From contig NBIV01000041.1 of NCBI GenBank assembly GCA_003194525.1, positions 248,001 to 312,000 of the forward strand: a stretch of 64,000 bases of DNA, given 5' to 3'. The stretch is from Gracilariopsis chorda. Lineage: Eukaryota; Rhodophyta; Florideophyceae; Gracilariales; Gracilariaceae. A model generated the notes under the pieces. That model was not told the DNA's origin, made no database searches, and was given only the letters and a program-made list of their open reading frames with translations. The translations under genes and the position numbers were made by a program. Within the stretch, counting starts at the first letter, position 1. The number at the start of each line of letters is the position of its first letter. Below, piece after piece: positions 1,333-21,969 of the stretch.

Positions 1333-1858
1333 TGTAGTAGAATACTACGTCCTTCGGCCGACTGGGGTAGTAGTCTACCAAGGGGCTGTAGCGGCAGAGA
1401 GCCAGCCACTGGGGTGACAATCCACTGGGTCTACTAGTGACGCGGGCACCAACTGGCAGCAAGGTGCAATGGGCGGGCACTATCTCAAGTCCCTACAGGT
1501 CGGGAGAATTGTAGCGTTGGCTTGGAGGCCTTCGGCGTCCTACTGGCAGCATATGGCGGCAAGAAGACGGCCATGTTGCTTGCCTTTACTCTTCGGAGGT
1601 CGGCAGCATTCGAGAAAACTTATCTAGCTGGCGAGGCGCTCTGACCTCCAGAACTATCCTAAAATATCAAATAAAATAAGCTACATAATCAAAACTATGG
1701 CCACAATGCCCTGGCACTTGCATTGCCCCCTTAGCGTCCCCTGAAACGGCACTCAGCTCATCCACGTGGAATATTTAGGCCAGCAATGGTCTGATCTCTG
1801 CTTGCCCATCCACGTGGTTACCTTACCGCTCCACCTACCCAGTGGTCATTCTCCTACA
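1333..1858 (-). repeat. 3' LTR of the gypsy element
   Basis: This 526-bp unit starts TGTAGTAG, ends CTCCTACA and is preceded by TSD ATCCT. It aligns along its whole length with the split 5' LTR and, in inverse orientation, with the solo LTR at 8114-8639. The landmark tract around 1390-1420 (agagagccagccactggggt) is found in all three. By eye it differs from the 5' LTR at roughly one base in eight to ten, so the insertion is old. Confidence 0.93.
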
Positions 1859-8113: not shown

Positions 8114-8639
8114 TGTAGGAGAATGACCATTAGGCATGTGGAGTGGTGAGGTAACCAAAGGTCCGGGCTGGCAGAGGTCAGACCATTGCTGGCCTAAATA
8201 TCCCACGTGGCCAAGCTGGGTGCCGAGGCAGGGGATACCAAGGGACTGTGAGATTGCCAAGGCACTGTGGCCTCAAGTTTTATTATGTAGCTATTATTAT
8301 TTATTATTTTAGGATAGTTTTCGGAGGTCAGAGCGCCTCGCCAGCTATATAAGTTAGCTCGAGTGCCGCTGATCTCCGAAGAGTAAAGGCAAGCACCCTC
8401 ACCGTCTTCTTGTCGCCATATGCAGCCAGTAGGACTCCAAAGGCCTCCAAGCCATCGCTACCATTTTCCCGACATGTAAGGACTTGAGATGGCGCCCGCC
8501 CATTGCGCTTCGCTGCCAGTTGGTGCCGGCATCACTAGTAGACCAAGGGGATTGTCACCCCAGTGGCTGGCTCTCTGCCGCTACTACCCCCTAGTGGAAT
8601 ACTGCCCCAGATGGCCAAAGGACGTAGTATTCTACTGCA
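8114..8639 (+). mobile_element. Solo LTR of the same gypsy family inside pol
   Basis: This 526-bp LTR starts TGTAGGAG, ends TCTACTGCA and is flanked by a perfect TSD, CAGCC, at 8109-8113 and 8640-8644. It lies inverted relative to the host element's LTRs and interrupts pol between protease and RT. No internal sequence remains, which is the usual result of LTR-LTR recombination. It shows that the family was active after this element had landed. Confidence 0.93.
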
Positions 8640-12259: not shown

Positions 12260-12518
12260 TGTAGTAGAATAATACGTCCTTTGGCTATCTGGGGTAGTAG
12301 TCTACCAGGGAGTAGTAGAGGCAGAGAGCCAGCCACTGGGGTGACAATCCACTGGGTCTACTAGTGACATGGGCACCAAATGGCAGCGAGACGCAATAGG
12401 CGGGCGCTATCTCAAGTCCCTACAGGTCGAGAGAATGGTAGCGATGGCTTGGAGGCCTTTGGCGTCCTACTGGCAGCACATGGCGGCAAGAAGACGGCGA
12501 TGGTGCTTGCCTTTACTC
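12260..12518 (-). repeat. 5' LTR of the gypsy element, inner fragment
   Basis: This 259-bp piece matches 1333-1591 of the intact LTR and stops abruptly at gcctttactc, where the 9.2-kb TIR element begins. The remaining 267 bp resume at 21703 and run to 21969. Together the two parts give 526 bp, exactly the length of the other LTR. Confidence 0.93.
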
Positions 12519-12541
12519 CGTCGGTGTTCTCGGAATGCTAG
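12519..12541 (+). repeat. Left terminal inverted repeat of the 9.2-kb element
   Basis: It starts CGTCGGTGTT and ends ATGCTAG. It pairs with 21678-21700 at 19 of 23 positions; the first ten bases match perfectly. It is preceded by TC. Confidence 0.88.
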
Positions 12542-12753
12542 ATAGAGGTGCTAGATCGCAAGTTTCTTAGGAAAAAGCTCAAGAATACTACGAAAATGAT
12601 AGATTCTGCTAGTTTCTGGCGCTTGCAAAGTAAAGAAAATTTTTTTTGGAATTCACACTTCCATATCTTACAGAGCCTTGCCTCACCTGCACTGCGCATC
12701 GCTAGTTTCAAGTTTGGACCAAGTCCATTCTCCACTAAAAGGTAGATACAGAT

Positions 12754-12796
12754 CTCGAAATGGCGCTGGACGCTGCGCGGCCAGCGTCATTTCGAG
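12754..12796. repeat. 16-bp-arm inverted repeat downstream of ORF A
   Basis: Arms CTCGAAATG(G/A)CGCTGG with one mismatch enclose an 11-base GC-rich loop. It sits about 190 bp past the stop of the minus-strand gene at 12985, so it could be a transcript-end structure or a protein-binding palindrome of the element. Confidence 0.6.
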
Positions 12797-12984
12797 CACC
12801 CAACCAAAACTAACATTTTTATTTCCATCTTTTGATTTTCAAACTTCATACTGCCCTAGTTTGACTTCCAACCCATCCTCAGGAACTCATCTGGGCAGCT
12901 CTCTCCGTTCTCAAACACCCGATGCACCGCGCATAAGATTCCAATACCACCCATTCCGTCGTCCTAACGGCCTCAACGACACTC

Positions 12985-13997
12985 CTAAACATCACTAACC
13001 ATGTTCTTCGGAAATCGAATGTTGTGGATATCGATTACGCAATTGTACTGGTCATAATCATCTCGATTGATGTCTAAGACCCCCAAACTGTTATCCACCT
13101 CTTCCAAAGCAACAGCATCACCGTCATCATATAAAACCCTCTCCTCCGGATCAAGGTCGTTCCTGGAGAGTACAGGCACCTCTATGAAGTCATCATCGGA
13201 GCTCGCTCCGACTTCAGGGCCTCCTCGGTTTCCAGAACCGCCCGCGAGAGCACCTGTTGTTCTTCCACAGCTCTGGCGGGTTTTCACCGGAGCCTCTCCA
13301 CCGCTCTCAAGGCTCTTCACCGGCGCTTTGGTCACCAAAATGCTTGATGTTGTACCAGCAACAGCGGGAAGGCACTTGACTTGTCTTGCAGTGGTCCTGG
13401 AAGCTGCACTTCTGTGGACAGTCTTCACATTTCCTCCCGACTGCGGTGGAACCGACTCATTCCCCTCTCCGCCTTCATTTTTGACACCCATCATCGCAAT
13501 GTCCCATGCATATAAACCCGCTGAAACCATCTCCTTCAAAGTTGCGGGCGGTTCCTCGGGACCCCCAAAAACAGAAGGGTACTTCTCATCTGGTGTGACG
13601 AAATATTTGTCCTAAAGATAACCACCAAGTCCTCTCCAGGTCTCTGCGTAGAGGACAGGGGATGGTTGTGTAGTGAACGACAGAGTCTCGTCCGCAGCAC
13701 CCCAGAAACCCCCACACCGCGCAATTTCGCCTCTCCTACCTTCACCTTCGCAACACTACTCCCAACTTGTACGAACAGATTGACCTCCGCATCGCCCTTA
13801 AGCACCTGACCCGTATTGCCCCCAGTTGATGGCAAAGGGTGGCTGGCAGTTAGGGTGGCGCCCCGGCTCTTCGCTTTGCTTCGTGTTGTCGGCATGTCGA
13901 TAACACGTCTCTTCGGCGAAACAAGCTTCCTCGGAGTCCGCTTCCGTAATGGCGCGTTTATCTTATTCCCAGTGGAATCCATGGCTGAGTACTTCAA
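12985..13997 (-). CDS. ORF A of the 9.2-kb element: spliced basic/acidic protein, 294 aa
   Basis: Unrecognised protein. Exon 1 is 13997-13740, the intron 13739-13612 (128 nt, GTAGGA...TTTAG, phase 0) and exon 2 13611-12985. Splicing joins SVAKVK to DKYFVTPDEKYPSVF, and the upstream part of exon 2 reads as good protein before any start codon, which supports the intron over a frameshift. The N-terminus is strongly basic (LRKRTPRKLVSPKRR, then RSKAKSRG), fitting nuclear entry and nucleic-acid binding. The centre is Gly/Ser/Thr-rich and disordered. The C-terminus is acidic (SSDDDFIEVPVL, LDPEERVLYDDGDAVALEEVD). It is the only gene of the element without a stop or frameshift. It diverges from the methyltransferase gene across the foldback at 14190. 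It might be a DNA-binding accessory of transposition. Confidence 0.6.
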
Positions 13998-14189
13998 AGG
14001 TCGCGCTTGCGTTTTCTTGGCACCTGCTGACGTCGAATGCTCCCGTGATCACGTATGCTTGGTTCCATAGAGATGGACGTAAGCCCTATATATCGTTTTC
14101 AAGACGTTTCATGACATCCATTGTCGTCAACGTAGCATCCCTGTAATTCCCCTCCCAATTACTTGCATTGCAAAAAGAATTTGATAATT

Positions 14190-14347
14190 TTTTGGTCGAG
14201 GACCATGGTCCGAGGTGTCGTGGTGCTCCACCGCGAACACGATGGAGCGCCAGGACGCGAAATTTTAATTAAAATTCATGCCTGGCGCTCCATCGTGTTC
14301 GCGATGGAGCACCATGACACCTCGGACCACGGTACTCGACCCAAAAC
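14190..14347. repeat. 158-bp foldback between the divergent genes
   Basis: Two arms of about 65 bp are near-perfect inverted copies (about five mismatches and one length difference), meeting at an AT-rich centre that is itself palindromic (AAATTTTAATTAAAATT). Each arm also contains a short internal stem, GCTCCA/TGGAGC. It lies between the starts of ORF A and the methyltransferase gene. It could be a bidirectional promoter or operator, a replication or recombination hairpin, a source of small RNA, or a separate foldback insertion. Confidence 0.85.
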
Positions 14348-14386
14348 GAAGAGAAACATATTCCGAAGGAAACGGGTTCATTCAAG

Positions 14387-16888
14387 ATGCACGGAACCGG
14401 AGAAGAGCTTAGTGATGCTTATCTTGCAGTTCGTGATGACTACGCAGCGACGAGGCAAAATTTGGATGAGCCGAGAAGTTTGAAGCACACCGACTTTGTG
14501 TAGTTCGCGGTACAAAGTAGCACCGTTCATGACTCTGCCAAAAAAATGTTTCTCACTCTCTTTGGACAGGATTACATCTCGTATTCGGACTCCTAGCTCC
14601 GTAACATGTCTCTCAGAGGCCCTCAACGTCAACTCTATCTTATGGCAAGAGTGGCGGACGTCAAGGACCGTGAAGAAGACATGCCTGTAACGGACTTTTG
14701 GAAGGTTTATTGTAAAAGGGAAGGGCTTAGAGGAATTCTCCGTAACGTGTTGCTATCTGTCTTTTGCAAGTCCGTGTTCTGAGAGCAACCAAGAAATCTT
14801 CCGCTTTCCACACGGATCCTTGCACCGACTTTGAAATGGTCATTGGGTTGTCTATGGTGCAACAGAATGCCGTGGATAAGAAAGGAAGTGGTAGAAAGAG
14901 GAAAATGGGCATGAAAGCTAAGAAGTTCTCGAAAGTGAGTTTGGCGGACAAGACCCAGAGCCAAAGAGTCGGGTATGGTGTGCAGCAGGTGACCAGCGCT
15001 TGGGATTGTTTCGCCCAATTTTTCGGGTTTCCCAACGTTGAGGTTATGATCTTGCCTTACATTCGACTCGACTATATCAGTGTAGTCTTCACCGATATCG
15101 CACAACGCTCCATGGGCTTCCAACACAAAGATTGTTCCAAACAGTTTGTGGAGGAGAAGAACGTCACCACCGTAGAAGAAAACGTTACCAAATGGGCATG
15201 GAATCTGCCGGACCCAGTGGATACAGCGCTTCCCCTTTGTGCCAAAGAATACCTTGGTGACCTTTCTAATGTGGTGTTACAAGAGAAACTGTTCGACATC
15301 TCTGCTCCCAGCAAATGGGATGCCCTCAAAAGTTTCATCATCACGAGAACGAGACTTTTCCCTCTGCGGTTTGAGAAGTTTAGTGAATCTCTTGTCACTA
15401 CGGTTCAAGAGGCCATAAAGCCTTTGAAGCTCATTGCATTGCATGGAAGCAATGTCAAAGTACATCAAGCTGTGAAACCAGAGCCCGCAGAAGACGTTGA
15501 CATCATTATGGAGCCGGTTGAAACTGGTACGGCTGGTGGTGGGAACGAACGTGCTGAGCGTGTGGAAGGTGGTTATCAGGGTGAGTTGGAAGAAGTGGAA
15601 GAGATAGAGATGGTATAGGATGCGGAACGAGGTACTGCGGAACGTGGTACTGCACCATAGGCCATTGACGGACTGCAGACAACAGCATTTTCGCAGAACC
15701 TATCGTATGATGTCGAAGGCACGGGGATTCGTGTACCACCGTACCCTACGACTTTGGATGATGTGATAGCTTACAAGTATTGTGAGAAGGAGATGTCCCG
15801 CAACTTCCGTCTCCACAACTGCAAGTGCGAAAATTTCATCGAAGTTGGCGACAACAAGCCCGGCGAAAGCGAGGTATCTATTGAAGGAAAGGTACAGTTC
15901 CTGCTTTCCAATCCGCCATATGGGACTCATTCTGAGCGTCGTTTGGAGAACAGCGAACACGATATTCTGACAGAGAAGGGCATGAGCAGGTCAGCGAGGA
16001 GGTCGTCAAAGCTTCTACGTCCTGGTGGACATATTATACAGTTCTGCTCATGGGATCAGGTACCGTTGTGGCGGGATGTGCTACGGAAATTTACCTACAT
16101 GGATGACTCTGATACGATGCGTTACTCCTTTGTCGTCGACAAACAGCCCCTCCATTTCGTACTGTCTTTAGGTAATACGACGGGTAACGTTGGGAGAAGA
16201 AGTTGCCGGTTGCACCAGACGACAGAATACGCTGTACATGCTGTTAGTTCTGGAGTTCCTTATGCACAACAGCACTGGATGGTCAACAATGAGAACTTCA
16301 ATTATGTTGCTTCACGATATCCAGCGTATCATGCAATCACGGATCAGGTGCCCCCGATGTCAAATAGTGAGATGCTCATGTGGTCTTTGAAAAACCCGGA
16401 TGGGAAGTATACGAGGAAGAGGGTGCGACCGGAACAGAAGTGTAGGGCACTGTTGAAAGAGCTCATTTGCAGGTTCAGTCAGCCAGGAGACCTCGTGGTC
16501 GACATGTTTGCCGGAACGTTCTCGACAGCGATGGCGTGCATGGAACTGCCCAAGTCGGAAGTTTGTGGGGTGTGAACCGGACGTAGCTTGCTTTGAACAC
16601 TCCAGGCATGCCGCTATTGTTCGCTTCGCTTCCATAATACGGGAAGGACACACGGATATTGGGAAGAGCCAGGAGCTTCGAAAGACGGCCCATTGTGTTT
16701 CGTCTGCATTCCCAATGGGAAGAAGCAGGCACACTGTGTTATGGAGGGCTGTCGACGGATTTTCACCGTACCAAATTCTTCCCCCACACCTTGTCGACTT
16801 TCTCTCCACTTTGTGGCAAAGTGAAATTCTAGGGAAGTTGGGAAGGAAGAAAGCTATGGATGGCAGACGAAGCTGCAGGGAAGAATGA
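14387..16888 (+). pseudogene. ORF B of the 9.2-kb element: class-beta DNA methyltransferase (decayed)
   Basis: This remnant is of an amino-methyltransferase that would modify adenine (N6) or cytosine (N4) in DNA. The N-terminal 430 codons (14387-15618) are of unknown fold, with a basic patch KKGSGRKRKMGMKAKKFSK. The catalytic part (15661-16888) has motif IV as LLSNPPYG (15900-15923), KLLRPGGHIIQFCSW after it, and motif I as VVDMFAGTFSTAMACMEL near the C-terminus, then CEPDVACFEHSRHAAIVRF. Motif IV before motif I is the class-beta order. Breaks are TAG stops at 14501, 14594, 15616 and 15658 and frameshifts near 14775 and 16570; the text continues smoothly across each. All four stops are TAG, as expected from CAG-to-TAG change. 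The SET gene follows at once, overlapping by 29 bases. Confidence 0.8.
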
Positions 16889-17498
16889 ATCTGGAGAACA
16901 TGAAGTCTCTAATGGCAATGGAGGCTGTGCAATATGGTTGCGAGTGGGCAAGTCTACTATTCGTCACGAAAATGCTGGTGTTGGAGTGTTTGCAACTCGT
17001 CCAATTGCTGCAGGCGAGATAGTGTGCTATTTCTACGGGACGTTGGTTTATCATGACCTTTCGAATCGGAAAGAAGGGCACAATACCTACGGGGAGGGAG
17101 TCATGGGTGTGACGAAGGATCGCTTTCGGAAGTATGCGGTGGAGAAAGAAGTCTACGGTCAACAGTTCCAATCACTTCCGCATTGAAAACAGCTGACTAA
17201 TTGGCATGGAAAACAAGCAAACCCCATTTTATGGGTGGTTCCTGCCCCTTTTTTTATTGTGGGGTATATCAACGATCCAAATTACGTGGAAGGGGATAAA
17301 CAGTTAGATGCCATGGTGTATGGCCTCGTGAAAGAAAGGGAGGCGAATGTGCCAATGAAACGGACACCGGGAATGGGACGAACACCAGGAGGAATAACGG
17401 ACTACAAACTTATTAAGATGGAGGCGACAGCCGACATAGAGCAAGGAGAGGAACTGTTCGCAGATACGGTGCTGTTTATGACTGGCAAACCCATTTGA
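16860..17498 (+). pseudogene. ORF C of the 9.2-kb element: SET-domain protein (one stop)
   Basis: SET domains transfer methyl groups from SAM to protein lysines, most often on histones. The N-terminal strand pair is clear: NAGVGVFATRPIAAGEIVCYF then YGTLVY. The later half has YINDPNYVEGDKQ in the place of the NHSxxPN motif and ATADIEQGEELFADTV in the place of the C-terminal strand, where the usual LxxDY tyrosine is Thr. One frame is open from ATG 16860 to TGA 17496 except for one TGA at 17184. At about 210 codons it is a short, SET-only type. It follows the methyltransferase with a 29-base overlap in another frame, so the two may once have been one transcript or even one protein. Confidence 0.72.
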
Positions 17499-17849
17499 AT
17501 GTGGAGGATGGAACGATAGTCATTGATTAGTTTGTTGTTATAAACCTTTCTCCACAGCCTGGCTAAAGAATGTCGTTTATTACGTGAACGGATGTCTAGT
17601 CCTAACTTAGGACAACATTACTTTTCAATAGGGATAGAAGATACAAATCGATATAGATGTGACACAGAAACGTCCATTTTTGGTACCACCGAGGATTGTA
17701 TTTTCAAGATTTCACAAAAAGCAAAGATTTTTGTGCGTATCGGGTGGCGAGATTTTCCCGGATAACACACGGAGTGCACCAACCCAGAGCGTCACCAGCC
17801 ACTTGCGCAAGAGTTTTGACTCCAAGAATCGCGCCGAAGGGAAAGAAGT

Positions 17850-20043
17850 GAGGCCCAGGAAGGGGTAGTGCGGCGAGTGCGGCTAAGACGCAGCGAAAGG
17901 CTATTGAGAAGCGAACCGCGAGTGGAACGAAAGCAAAATCATGTGTTCCCAGGAGCGGATTATCGGGGAGAAGGTCAGGAAAAGGTGCTTCGAAGAGAGG
18001 GGGAAGAGGTGGGGCAAAGAACGTCGGATCCGAGCGCACGACGAGTGAGCGCACGACGAGTGAGAATTTGAAGGCTGATGCCCACGCGCATATAGCAGGC
18101 GGGAGAGATTCGGTTCGAGGACAGCGATCTATGCCTGGGTCAGGTGGTAGAGTGGAGGGTAAAAAAGGGTTGGTTGTTCGGAGAACGGAAGAGGTAACAG
18201 ATCAGGGAGGGTTGAGAGGAAATGCGCCGGTCGAAGACCGAAATAAGGATGAAGATATATCCGGAATGAAACAAATAGAAGAGGCAGGTGCGCTGAAGAG
18301 AAGTGGGGCCCCAAGTGGAAACCGAGATGTAGGAGAGGTAAATGTCTCTTTGGTACACAGTGATGGAAACGAAGAGGATCACATTGTGAAGGAGAGATGG
18401 ATGACAGATATGATAAACGAAAGAGTGGGACGCCGCTCTAATTTAAAGGAAACGCAAGAAGTGGAAGAAGTGGTCAGAGTGACGGATGGGATACAGGAAG
18501 CATCGAAAAGCGGAGACCGTACAAGCACACTCGTGCAGAAGCGAAAGGTGCAAATGGCTAAAAAATTGGAAAGTGATAGAGGAAGCAGAACGCTGCAGAC
18601 TCTGGAAGGCATGCGAGAGAGAAAATGAATTGTTCATCGGTCGCCAAGTGAACCTGCTGACGAACGAAGCCTGCCTGTCAATGTTTTGGGAGATGCAGGA
18701 AATGACGACATCGGTGTGATTTCTTGATCTTCGTTAGTGGAAAGGATCAATATATTGGGGGCAGAACTCGGACAGATCAAAAGGGACCACTGCAGCCTAA
18801 AGATTTCGCTGAAGCTGACGCAAGAGGAACTGAAGAGGACGAGAGAAGAGATGAGCGACAAGAATACATTGATAGATAGCTTACGGGAATGGATGAAGGT
18901 GGGAAGAGGGGAGAGAAAGGGATCTGAAGGTTAAAATGGCTTGAGAGGGCGTGGGAAGTATGTAGTTGATGTGCAAGAGAGTTTTTTTGGGTTTGCCAGG
19001 TTATTATATGATAGGTTGTTGTACTATGCGAAGGTGGAGGTATCGGAGTTTTGTTTTACTTCGGAGGGTGTGGAAAGAAACTGGAAGAATCGATGCAAAT
19101 TATTGGGGAAGGGAAGAGAGTGGGGTGTGTTTGTCGTCGGAGGAAGGGAAATTTTGCCTCGATGTCCGTTTGAGATCGCGTCTGAGATGAGGTCGTACAC
19201 GCCTTCGTCCCGAGGAGGAAGTAATGATCAATTGAAGTACATGGCTGGCGTTGAGATTGAGGGGGAGAGATGGCAGTCGATTAGTGATGCGGGTAGGTAG
19301 GATCAATGCGTGCGGGAGGTTGTTGCGGACAGGTTTTTGAGGCAACGTATGAAGCAGAATTTGAGTGATGTGATTGGGATTCGGAAGCGTGCGGCACCGG
19401 ACGAAATGCTTTCGTTGCTTGGATATGAGTTGATCGCCAGACGTGTGAGACCGCCAGAGGGGACGGGGCTAGACATTGAGTTGAAGAAGCAGTTGCAGGA
19501 AGCAAAGAGGAAGTTCAAGGGGGATTGGGAGGCGAAGAGCGGTAGTTTATGTTCTTGGAGGATGAGAACAATCGAGGATCTTACGTAATCTGGAATTGGG
19601 GTTGCTGGTCGGCTGAGGGAGTTTAGTGAAGGGGACATTTACTTCAAGAACGGGGCTGCGGTGGAAGTGTTGGAAGAATTCATGTGATATGAGGTGGGGA
19701 CGGAAAGGGAGGGGAAGATGGAGTACGTTGATGGGACAGTGATGCATTTGGCTCGTTTGGATGCGTGGATCGGATTTGTTTTGACAGCAATGGACACAGA
19801 TATGGGGCGTGGAGTAAGAAGGCAGTTGTTATTTTCTAGTTGTACAGGGAGTATCTTCCGCTTGCGGTGGAGAAAATACTTGGGGTGGCGTGGGAGAGTG
19901 TGAGAGAACTACATCATGAAGAATTGGAAATTGAAGGTTGCGATGACGGTGACCGGCGATTTATAGCTAAGAATGGGAGTAGAGAAGCGAAGGTAGTGCT
20001 GTGGATACCTTCGAAACGGAAGATTGCTGAGATGGCGCGCTGA
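17850..20043 (+). pseudogene. ORF D of the 9.2-kb element: coiled-coil protein of unknown function (decayed)
   Basis: This is a long purine-rich coding remnant. It starts after a stop near 17848 with a basic, disordered stretch (RRSGKGASKRGGRGGAKN, a tandem SERTTSERTT), then an acidic linker, then a coiled coil (KKLESDRG; EEAERCRLWKACERENELF; LGAELGQIKRDHCSLK; LTQEELKRTREEMSDKN). A globular part follows: FFGFARLLYDRLLYYAKVEV, GREWGVFVVGGREILPRCPF, MKQNLSDVIGIRKRAAPDEM, LDIELKKQLQEAKRKFKGDW, then YREYLPLAVEKILGVAWESV and KVVLWIPSKRKIAEMAR. Frame changes occur near 18600, 18720 and 19840, with stops at 18932, 19298, 19586 and 19684. I recognise no family. Its end overlaps the opposite-strand ORF E by about 130 bp. 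Confidence 0.5.
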
Positions 20044-21161
20044 ATGAGGGCCATTCTTGTTTTACGTGGGATGTTGGAGGAAGAATGTGGGATGGAGTAT
20101 CCGTCGCCGGGGGAGGAAGAGGGGGAGAAGAAATTTGGGAGGTATCCGAGTAGGGTGAGGTTTTGGGAGACACACTTTTGGTGAAATGCGTCGGAGAGGT
20201 TTAGAAGGGTGATGTGAAGGGGGTAGGAGGTGATGGAGGAGCCTTTGAGTGAGGTTCCTGACGTATTGGAGTATAAATGGACGAGACTGACGAATGATTC
20301 CATACCGGTTGTTTCGGGGGTGTGCCAAATGATGTCATTGATGTGGCACTGCATGATGGCTTGTTTGAAGGCAGGAACGACTTTGTTTCCAAAGGCTGCG
20401 TCCATAGGATGAGCGAAGGTGGGGGTGGAAGAGGAGGAAGGGGACGATTGGGAGACGGGTTTGAAGAAGGTGTTGTTGAAGTGTGCGAGAGCAAGTTGTT
20501 GCTTCAGGACGTCTGTGGCGCGTTTTTGGAAGAGGGTTGCGGAGAATGAGTTATGCTCGTCGGTGAGTGTGAGAGGGAGGAAGCCAATGGAGCTGATGCG
20601 TTCCTTGAGGAGGTGTTATTGGAGTGCGAGGCACTGCTTTGCGGAGGAGATGGATTTCTGGAAGGCTGACTTGGAGAAGTCCGGGTAATTGAGAGGGGAG
20701 ATGAGTTCGTCGACTTTGCGTGTGCTGAAGGAGGAAGCGATGGAGGAGATGCAGAGGAAGACTTGCTCGAGATGGGGGTTGTTGAGGAGAGCGGAGGGGG
20801 ATTGGGAGGAGGTATGGGGAGGTGGGTCTGAGGAGGAGACTGAACAGAGGGCGTGACTTGCCATGTGGTGTGCGTCTTGTGCTTGGAGAGAAAGGGAGGC
20901 CTGTTGGATGTGATAGGGTTCATCTTCGGCGAGGGGGACGTTGTCGGAGGGGTGGTGTGAGGGAGTGGGAGGAGGAATGGTGGAGAGGTTTGGAACGGAT
21001 TTTCGTCGCTCGGTCCTTGGAGGGAACTGGATGGGAGCGTTGGCGGAGAAGGAAGGGCGTTTGTCGGGGGTGAGTCGATGAGGGCACCTGCGTTGGTGAC
21101 TCTGGAGAGAGAACGCAGTGCGGCCATAGAAGGTGCAACGGGGATGGCAACAGGGTGTCAT
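19914..21161 (-). pseudogene. ORF E of the 9.2-kb element: zinc finger plus Plavaka-like transposase segment
   Basis: One minus-strand frame runs from ATG 21161 (an upstream ATG is at 21359) to TGA at 19914, with one in-frame TAA at 20616-20618. It starts with a C2H2/C2HC-like finger, CHPRCTFYGRTAFSLQSHQR plus a following Cys. A long Pro/Ser/His linker follows. The C-terminal part reads HLYSNTSGTSLKGSS then SYPLHITLLNLSD and NLTLLGYLPNF. This spacing matches the SDKTxL, YPVYLTIGNIS and LLGYLP block of Plavaka-type transposases as I know them from fungi. The catalytic region that should follow is not found downstream, so this is a truncated transposase or a derived DNA-binding protein. The coding strand is pyrimidine-rich. 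Confidence 0.55.
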
Positions 21162-21545
21162 GGCGGGGGAAGGAGAACGGAGAACGGGATGCTTGGAAAC
21201 AGAGAAGGGAGGGTGGTGGCGGAGTGTGATATCGGGGAGCGTAATATTATGGCGCACGTAGATGAGGTGGTGCATGTGATGCTGAGCGTCTTTTCGTAGG
21301 GCGTGAGGTAGAGCATGCGATGCAGGGAGCAGGTCGGGCAACAAGTGATAGAAAGCCAAAGCTATTTGGTTATGTAAACGCTATGTATCTATTCTATCTA
21401 TTCTATGTTTTCTATTTTGCTATTTGAAGGGGCACTCGCTCAGGACCAGTAAGATTTGGATTCCACGTGCACCTAAGAGGGTAGGTATTAGTGGAGTCTG
21501 GCGCTAGTTTTACCTCCAAAGAAACTGGGAAATGTCTAGTATACT

Positions 21546-21573
21546 GCTAGTCTTTTCTCCCAAGAAAACTAGC
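21546..21573. repeat. Subterminal palindrome of the 9.2-kb element
   Basis: GCTAGT...TTTTCT and AAGAAAACTAGC form a 28-bp inverted repeat about 130 bp inside the right end. CTAG-containing motifs also occur close to the left TIR. Such motifs are often transposase-binding sites; that role is inferred. Confidence 0.5.
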
Positions 21574-21677
21574 TCTGTGCTATGTATGGAATTATTTTGA
21601 GAAATTTGATTCATTCAAAAGTGGGTTTGAAAAGTCGTTATTCGTTCATTTTAATTCTTTGCCTTTTGAATGCCAAA

Positions 21678-21700
21678 CTAGCATAACGATAACACCGACG
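21678..21700 (-). repeat. Right terminal inverted repeat of the 9.2-kb element
   Basis: Its reverse complement starts CGTCGGTGTT and ends ATGCTAG, like the left end. It is followed by TC (21701-21702) and then directly by gypsy LTR sequence. Confidence 0.88.
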
Positions 21701-21702
21701 TC

Positions 21703-21969
21703 TTAGGAGGTCGGCAGCACTCGAGCCAACTTATCTAGCTGGCGAGGCGCTCTGAGCTCCGGAACTCTCCTAAACCATTAAATAAAATTAGCTACATAAT
21801 CAAACCTATGGCCACAATGCCCTGGCAATTGCACTATCCTCTTAGCATCCCCCGCACCGCAACCCGGCTTGTCCACGTGGAATATTTAGGCCAGCAATAG
21901 TCTGACCTGTGCCTGCCCATCCACGTGGTTACCTCACCACTCCGCCTGCCCGATGGTCATTCTCCTACA
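21703..21969 (-). repeat. 5' LTR of the gypsy element, outer fragment
   Basis: This 267-bp piece begins ttaggaggtcggcagc, matching position 1592 onwards of the intact LTR, and ends ctcctaca just before TSD ATCCT. It contains the shared landmark ccacgtggaatatttaggcc. The bases TC at 21701-21702 repeat 12517-12518 and are the duplication made by the inserted element. Confidence 0.93.

Follow-up and report, generated by a model that had tools for sequence, protein, structure and literature searches.

What is a 9,182-bp insertion with the remains of a DNA methyltransferase and a SET domain doing inside a long terminal repeat (LTR) in a red alga? The insertion occupies positions 12519-21700 of a stretch of 64,000 nucleotides from Gracilariopsis chorda (GenBank assembly GCA_003194525.1, contig NBIV01000041.1, 248,001 to 312,000 of the forward strand), here called the window, and it is bounded by inverted ends of 23 bp. 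The best overall explanation, and one that we hold to be reasonably probable, is that it is a dead copy of a Plavaka-type transposon whose fuller relatives carry a methyltransferase-SET fusion protein that would mark the element itself.

The fusion is best seen in an intact relative on contig C53, in which an N6/N4 DNA methyltransferase of bacterial type and a SET domain form one protein of 1,065 aa; the gene is open at full length in four copies. The initial annotation had described a transposon with separate DNA methyltransferase and SET genes among five gene remnants. Both cargo domains are present, but the single frame in intact relatives rules out two genes and reduces the count to four. 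Beta-type N6/N4 methyltransferases have a DPPY motif that precedes the FxG motif binding S-adenosylmethionine. In the C53 protein, which matches PF01555 with 66.8 bits, DPP[YF] at residues 524-527 is followed by DLFAGTFST at 721, and all 13 aligned fusion sequences keep DPP. On these motifs, we assign this part to the beta-type N6/N4 amino-methyltransferases. Its product would more likely be N6-methyladenine (6mA) than N4-methylcytosine (4mC), because motif IV reads DPP[YF] and the nearest fold is that of CcrM.

SET lysine methyltransferases are characterised by an NHxxxPN motif and a catalytic Tyr. Among 13 aligned sequences, the Asn of an IND motif is kept in 11 and the final Tyr likewise in 11, with His replaced by Asp or Glu. 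The SET part of the C53 protein reaches 23.3 bits against PF00856, for a cut-off of 22.4, and viral SET-domain proteins match with E values of 1.5e-4 to 1e-3. A Pfam scan of the fusion returned methyltransferase and SET families only, with no chromodomain and no ParB family. Twelve homologous proteins were found, eleven at 26-38% identity and one (P0001) at 94%. A viral origin of the fusion was considered and rejected: 39 loci in viral contigs, taken as listed from one scan and not individually examined, match only residues 450-816, the methyltransferase part, at 24-49% identity.

The association of these domains with a Plavaka transposase extends across the genome. Pfam searches gave 150 methyltransferase, 85 SET and 114 Plavaka matches (candidates scored: 150 of 175, 146 of 146 and 123 of 133, respectively). 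For 59 of the 85 SET matches, a same-strand methyltransferase precedes SET at a distance of 373-430 bp. Further, 71 of the 150 methyltransferase matches listed have a Plavaka match within 10 kb on their 3' side, convergent in 70 cases, and none has one on the 5' side; density alone predicts about 1.2%. Methyltransferase-SET plus Plavaka is therefore a general architecture, not the chance of one window. The order of genes is a large gene (minus strand), the methyltransferase-SET fusion (plus), a gene for 821 aa (plus) and the transposase (minus). As the initial annotation anticipated, this order agreed, by eye, in every compared copy with at least two of the genes. At least 150 N6_N4_Mtase matches are listed above the Pfam cut-off in an apparently eukaryotic genome.

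The transposase of the C53 element matches PF18759 (Plavaka) with 76.6 bits against a cut-off of 26.3. The remnant in a sister copy of the window element (L013) scores 21.0 bits, under the cut-off, and the 114 genomic Plavaka matches listed do not include the window copy. Across 29 transposases, C510, C513, H788 and H792 are invariant, giving the signature C(2)C and H(3)H. D374, D490 and E812 are invariant as well and fit the places of a DDE triad, although these residues are assigned by position and other acidic columns are also invariant. From these features and the 2-bp target duplications described below, the enzyme is identified as a Plavaka transposase (CMCT clade, a relative of CMC/EnSpm), in agreement with the initial annotation. 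KDZ identity was rejected, since none of the Pfam matches of the six element proteins scanned (E up to 5) is to a KDZ family; the genome itself was not searched for KDZ.

The ends of the insertion are equally distinct. A pattern search places the left terminal inverted repeat (TIR), which reads CGTCGGTGTTCTCGGAATGCTAG, at 12519-12541 on the plus strand, and the right one, whose reverse complement reads CGTCGGTGTTATCGTTATGCTAG, at 21678-21700 on the minus strand. An undivided LTR at 1333-1858 (plus strand), identified by alignment, represents the form of the site without the element. The left piece of the split LTR (12260-12518, plus strand, 259 bp) is 90.3% identical to LTR bases 1-259, and the right piece (21701-21969, plus strand, 269 bp) is 86.2% identical to bases 258-526. 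Because the two pieces overlap at LTR bases 258-259, the TC at 12517-12518 and again at 21701-21702 is a target-site duplication. Alignment and inverted ends thus bear out the earlier claim of a TIR transposon inserted in an LTR with a TC duplication. That claim had set the split at 12518/21703; the left limit stands, while on the right the last base of the element is 21700, with the second TC at 21701-21702. A third copy of the LTR lies inverted at 8114-8636 (84%), so that more than one LTR insertion has occurred in this stretch, and the split LTR is paired with 1333-1858 by similarity.

The window element belongs to a family of many copies, as had been proposed. The TIR pattern, with up to three mismatches, occurs at 149 forward and 150 reverse places (299 in total) in the 91.3-Mb genome. 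These occurrences are not due to chance, since a reversed-pattern control gave 3 + 3 places. At least 17 further places carry between about 4 and 9.2 kb of the window element, with main pieces at 90-94% identity; this count is a lower bound from a sequence search that scored 18 of 446 candidates. Where both ends were in hand, an exact 2-bp duplication flanks 17 of 18 elements, the sole exception being C134, and a 3-bp duplication flanks none of the 18. One further element (C187) was excluded from this count, having only its right end in hand. Mispaired ends, used as a control, had 2 bp in common in 25 of 306 cases. The duplicated sequences vary (TC, TA, TG, TT, AT, CA, AC, CC or CT), confirming the prediction of 2-bp duplications of TC or other sequence.

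Gene content differs among copies. In 27 TIR pairs drawn from the first 100 of the 299 listed ends, the methyltransferase is present in 18, the transposase in 19, both in 12 and neither in 2. One gene per TIR pair, a pattern that the initial annotation had regarded as incompatible with its proposal, is therefore found in part: single-gene copies exist, yet 12 of the 27 pairs hold both genes. We read TIR pairs with a single gene as deletion derivatives of an element of fixed gene order. C12, C37, C64, C144 and C232 share a deletion derivative some 7.98 kb long, in which the frame over fusion residues 425-1019 is open (98% identity).

Were the cargo genes ever in use? When 15 of the 18 window-family copies that were fetched are compared with the C53 family, the ratio of nonsynonymous to synonymous substitution (dN/dS) of the fusion is 0.16-0.22. 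By part, the same comparison yields 0.14-0.19 for the N-terminal region, 0.13-0.27 for the methyltransferase and 0.15-0.29 for SET. Other genes of the element behave similarly between families, with 0.17-0.32 for the transposase (four comparisons, 403-447 codons), 0.24-0.26 for the 821-aa gene (four comparisons) and 0.19 for the large gene (two comparisons). All values were obtained by the Nei-Gojobori method, and since dS between families is often near or above 1, their magnitudes are rough. Within the window family, dN/dS of the fusion rises to 0.70-1.04 (8 copies, 28 pairs), and each of 15 copies carries 1-8 stops in the fusion. The low values between families, set against the high values and stops within one, indicate that the genes of the element were in use while the families diverged and that the window family has decayed since.

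The window copy itself is dead. No element protein could be made whole from it, because it has stops, an Asp to Asn change and two internal deletions. Alignment places the fusion remnant at 14372-17527 on the plus strand, covering residues 24-1065 of 1065 with 7 stops in mapped codons. Inside it lie Pfam matches to PF01555 (N6_N4_Mtase; 15895-16551, plus), where motif IV reads NPPY as against DPPY in the intact copy, and to PF00856 (SET; 16977-17465, plus), with one internal TGA. The transposase is reduced to an N-terminal remnant at 20019-21328 on the minus strand (residues 19-457 of 1160), in which the first catalytic Asp (D374) reads Asn, and from which the second Asp, C(2)C, H(3)H and the Glu are missing. 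Alignment also identifies a remnant of the 821-aa gene (residues 26-770) at 17765-20025 on the plus strand, and an N-terminal remnant of the large gene at 12997-13967 on the minus strand (residues ~58-458 of the 1417 aa encoded in C550).

Comparison of copies locates both deletions. The junction of the first, at 12993-13007, marks the loss of about 5.7 kb relative to C46, with about 14 bp common to both sides, and took the 3' part of the large gene and the sequence left of it. Three of 18 copies span this junction (the window copy, L010 and L021). At the second junction, 20019-20025, the 821-aa gene and the transposase gene have each lost their 3' end, presumably by deletion, and 17 of 18 copies span it, with L024 as the exception. 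Junctions common to several copies indicate that the window copy belongs to an amplified, non-autonomous derivative, whose amplification would have required transposase in trans.

What, then, would an element gain from such a protein? We propose that the Plavaka transposase would cut at the TIRs and insert with 2-bp duplications, and that relatives whose transposase is whole would mobilise the 9.2-kb derivatives in trans. The fusion protein would bind the element's own DNA or nucleosomes, possibly via its helical N-terminal region. Its methyltransferase part would methylate the DNA of the element, with 6mA favoured over 4mC, and its SET part would methylate lysine on nearby histones. The resulting private and permissive chromatin state could shield expression of the transposase from silencing by the host. 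Self-marking of the element, on its DNA and its histones, as a guard against silencing is, by analogy with other systems, the most likely role of the fusion, and we advance it tentatively.

Several observations weigh against this proposal. Support for SET is weaker than for the methyltransferase half, with a Pfam score barely above the cut-off. The usual NH..PN motif is absent, the domain reading IND with an N further on, and the SET end motif is degenerate in homologues P0005 and P0010. No SET chain appears among the 50 PDB rows listed for the model of the whole fusion, which the methyltransferase part fills. SET is annotated in 6 of the 12 homologues, the other six, P0001 among them, being annotated as methyltransferase only. 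An intact third paralogue on C637 (L093:104-3220, 34.6% identity) reads DAPT for DPPY and keeps its SET motifs, and thus both activities are not always kept. The linkage is also incomplete. The methyltransferase is absent from 9 of the 27 TIR pairs and, by distance rather than by TIRs, 79 of the 150 methyltransferase matches listed lack a Plavaka match in the 10 kb 3' of them and 26 of the 85 SET matches are not preceded by a scored methyltransferase. Some of those 26 are far stronger matches in long frames that resemble host genes, and at least one (C112:203655) lies inside an element copy. Methyltransferase and SET genes fixed in the host away from any TIRs were the second pattern that the initial annotation had set against its proposal. 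Finally, the direction of the chromatin effect is pure inference, and from sequence either 6mA or 4mC could be the DNA mark and either a histone or another protein the target of SET. The C637 paralogue is possibly a SET-only descendant of the fusion.

An unlikely alternative, one of the two main rivals as to the effect, is that the fusion restrains its own family, writing repressive marks on DNA and histones that keep copy number down, as if the loop of N4CMT and SETDB1 in bdelloid rotifers were condensed into a single protein. However, N4CMT belongs to the host and has a chromodomain (a reader) where the fusion has SET (a writer) (PMC8885841), whereas the fusion gene is borne by the element. 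Constraint on the fusion is also comparable to that on the transposase, which would fit better with a gene that promotes the spread of the element, although this is not decisive.

We give distinctly less weight to the other main rival, that the fusion licenses transposition, in which methylation of the TIRs or of a palindrome would tie excision to the hemimethylated phase that follows replication, and SET would act on the transposase or another non-histone target. Bacterial transposons under Dam control offer a precedent. In the window, a near-perfect palindrome of 157 bp (14190-14346) lies between the divergent large gene and fusion gene, with a folding energy of -80.6 against a shuffle mean of -24.05 (z -18.7). 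Palindromes also stand upstream of the fusion gene in the other two copies examined, with arms of 61 bp in C53 and exact arms of 16 bp in C46. We conjecture that this palindrome could be a site of action of the fusion protein. Yet the palindrome differs between families, its exact arms in C46 being just 16 bp, no target sequence is known, and linkage to SET would be left unexplained.

That the element picked up a methyltransferase-SET gene a single time, from a host or a bacterium, and has carried it unused is very improbable: the nine TIR pairs without the fusion methyltransferase do keep their TIRs, some with exact duplications (C7b, C14, C15, C23), but the low dN/dS between families already disfavours unused cargo, as do the four open full-length copies, the linkage to a Plavaka transposase and the retention of the fusion in homologues at 26-38% identity.

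The preferred explanation, a protein that marks its own element, can be set beside described systems, for which we draw on portions of the cited papers. Fungal Plavaka transposons, some of which carry TET/JBP genes with a proposed role as a shield from host silencing, share with the window family DDE, C(2)C and H(3-4)H residues, 2-bp duplications and a cargo of epigenetic enzymes (PMC12730594). Their cargo is a 5mC (5-methylcytosine) dioxygenase, whereas here it is a methyltransferase-SET fusion, and the termini of PlavakaA and PlavakaB are TGT..ACA or CATCA..TGATG, as against CGTCGGTG..CACCGACG here. Because these termini differ, we place the element as Plavaka-type but in neither subgroup. 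HarbingerS and oomycete MuDR elements also bear SET histone methyltransferase genes, in other transposase superfamilies and with no DNA methyltransferase mentioned in the portions consulted (PMC12730594). In Ectocarpus, the 21.5-kb transposon Sola1-1_Ec32 encodes a 1104-aa protein with an N4C/N6A methyltransferase, but its transposase superfamily differs and the partner domain is ParB-like, where ours are Plavaka and SET (PMC12477816). The Amoebidium genome has giant repeats flanked by Plavaka and containing tyrosine recombinases, with no methyltransferase-SET fusion mentioned in the text available (PMC11244446).

For giant red algal EnSpm elements with accessory genes, PMC12477816 cites the Bostrychia genome of Petroll et al. 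2025, and it refers to the same work on algal transposon proteins that combine ParB with a methyltransferase. As known here from that citing description, these elements resemble the window family in being large, CMC-type and equipped with several accessory genes. Relatives of the window element may thus already be in print (Petroll 2025). The initial annotation knew of no described element with this combination. This holds for the SET fusion, which we did not find in a transposon in the literature searched, Petroll 2025 and Iyer 2011 lying outside it, but not for red algal transposon methyltransferases, already cited in PMC12477816. Our finding is consequently only partly new: accessory methyltransferases are known, and the SET fusion would be the new part.

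In the papers cited above, transposon-borne epigenetic enzymes are described singly, as TET/JBP in fungi, SET in oomycetes and methyltransferases in brown, green and red algae. An element-borne fusion of a DNA writer with SET, under constraint and with open copies, lets one ask whether a genomic parasite writes its own chromatin. It also raises the questions of whether DNA and histone marks can be coupled by physical fusion, and whether eukaryotic 6mA or 4mC can stem from transposons. A census of methyltransferases and SET domains in genomes of this kind may largely reflect transposons, as with the 59 of 85 SET matches behind a methyltransferase here. We speculate, as a doubtful extension, that a single core protein of an old eukaryotic Plavaka lineage marks both DNA (probably with 6mA) and a lysine on histones, so that the elements have a two-layer chromatin code to themselves and are the source of most SET matches in this genome, and that their second large gene may act by binding DNA and erasing modifications.

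That large minus-strand gene encodes 1417 aa where intact, in C550 (L072:153-4403), and is also found in C46 (L071:3421-7394). A homologue search with the 1417-aa protein scored 7990 candidates, none of which reached E 0.001, and the protein or pieces of it gave nothing significant against Pfam, NCBIfam, PHROGs or PDB. Its predicted fold (1018 aa, 3 sequences) has a mean predicted local distance difference test score (pLDDT) of 30.8 and is unusable. By eye, the protein has a ParB-like stretch and a C-terminal HxD..H resembling a 2-oxoglutarate-Fe(II) dioxygenase; without support from Pfam, PDB or PHROGs, we claim neither. At the left end of some copies lies a further gene of 400-417 aa (L071:1590-2789, L028:1547-2797), which has no Pfam match and looks, by eye, like a membrane protein.
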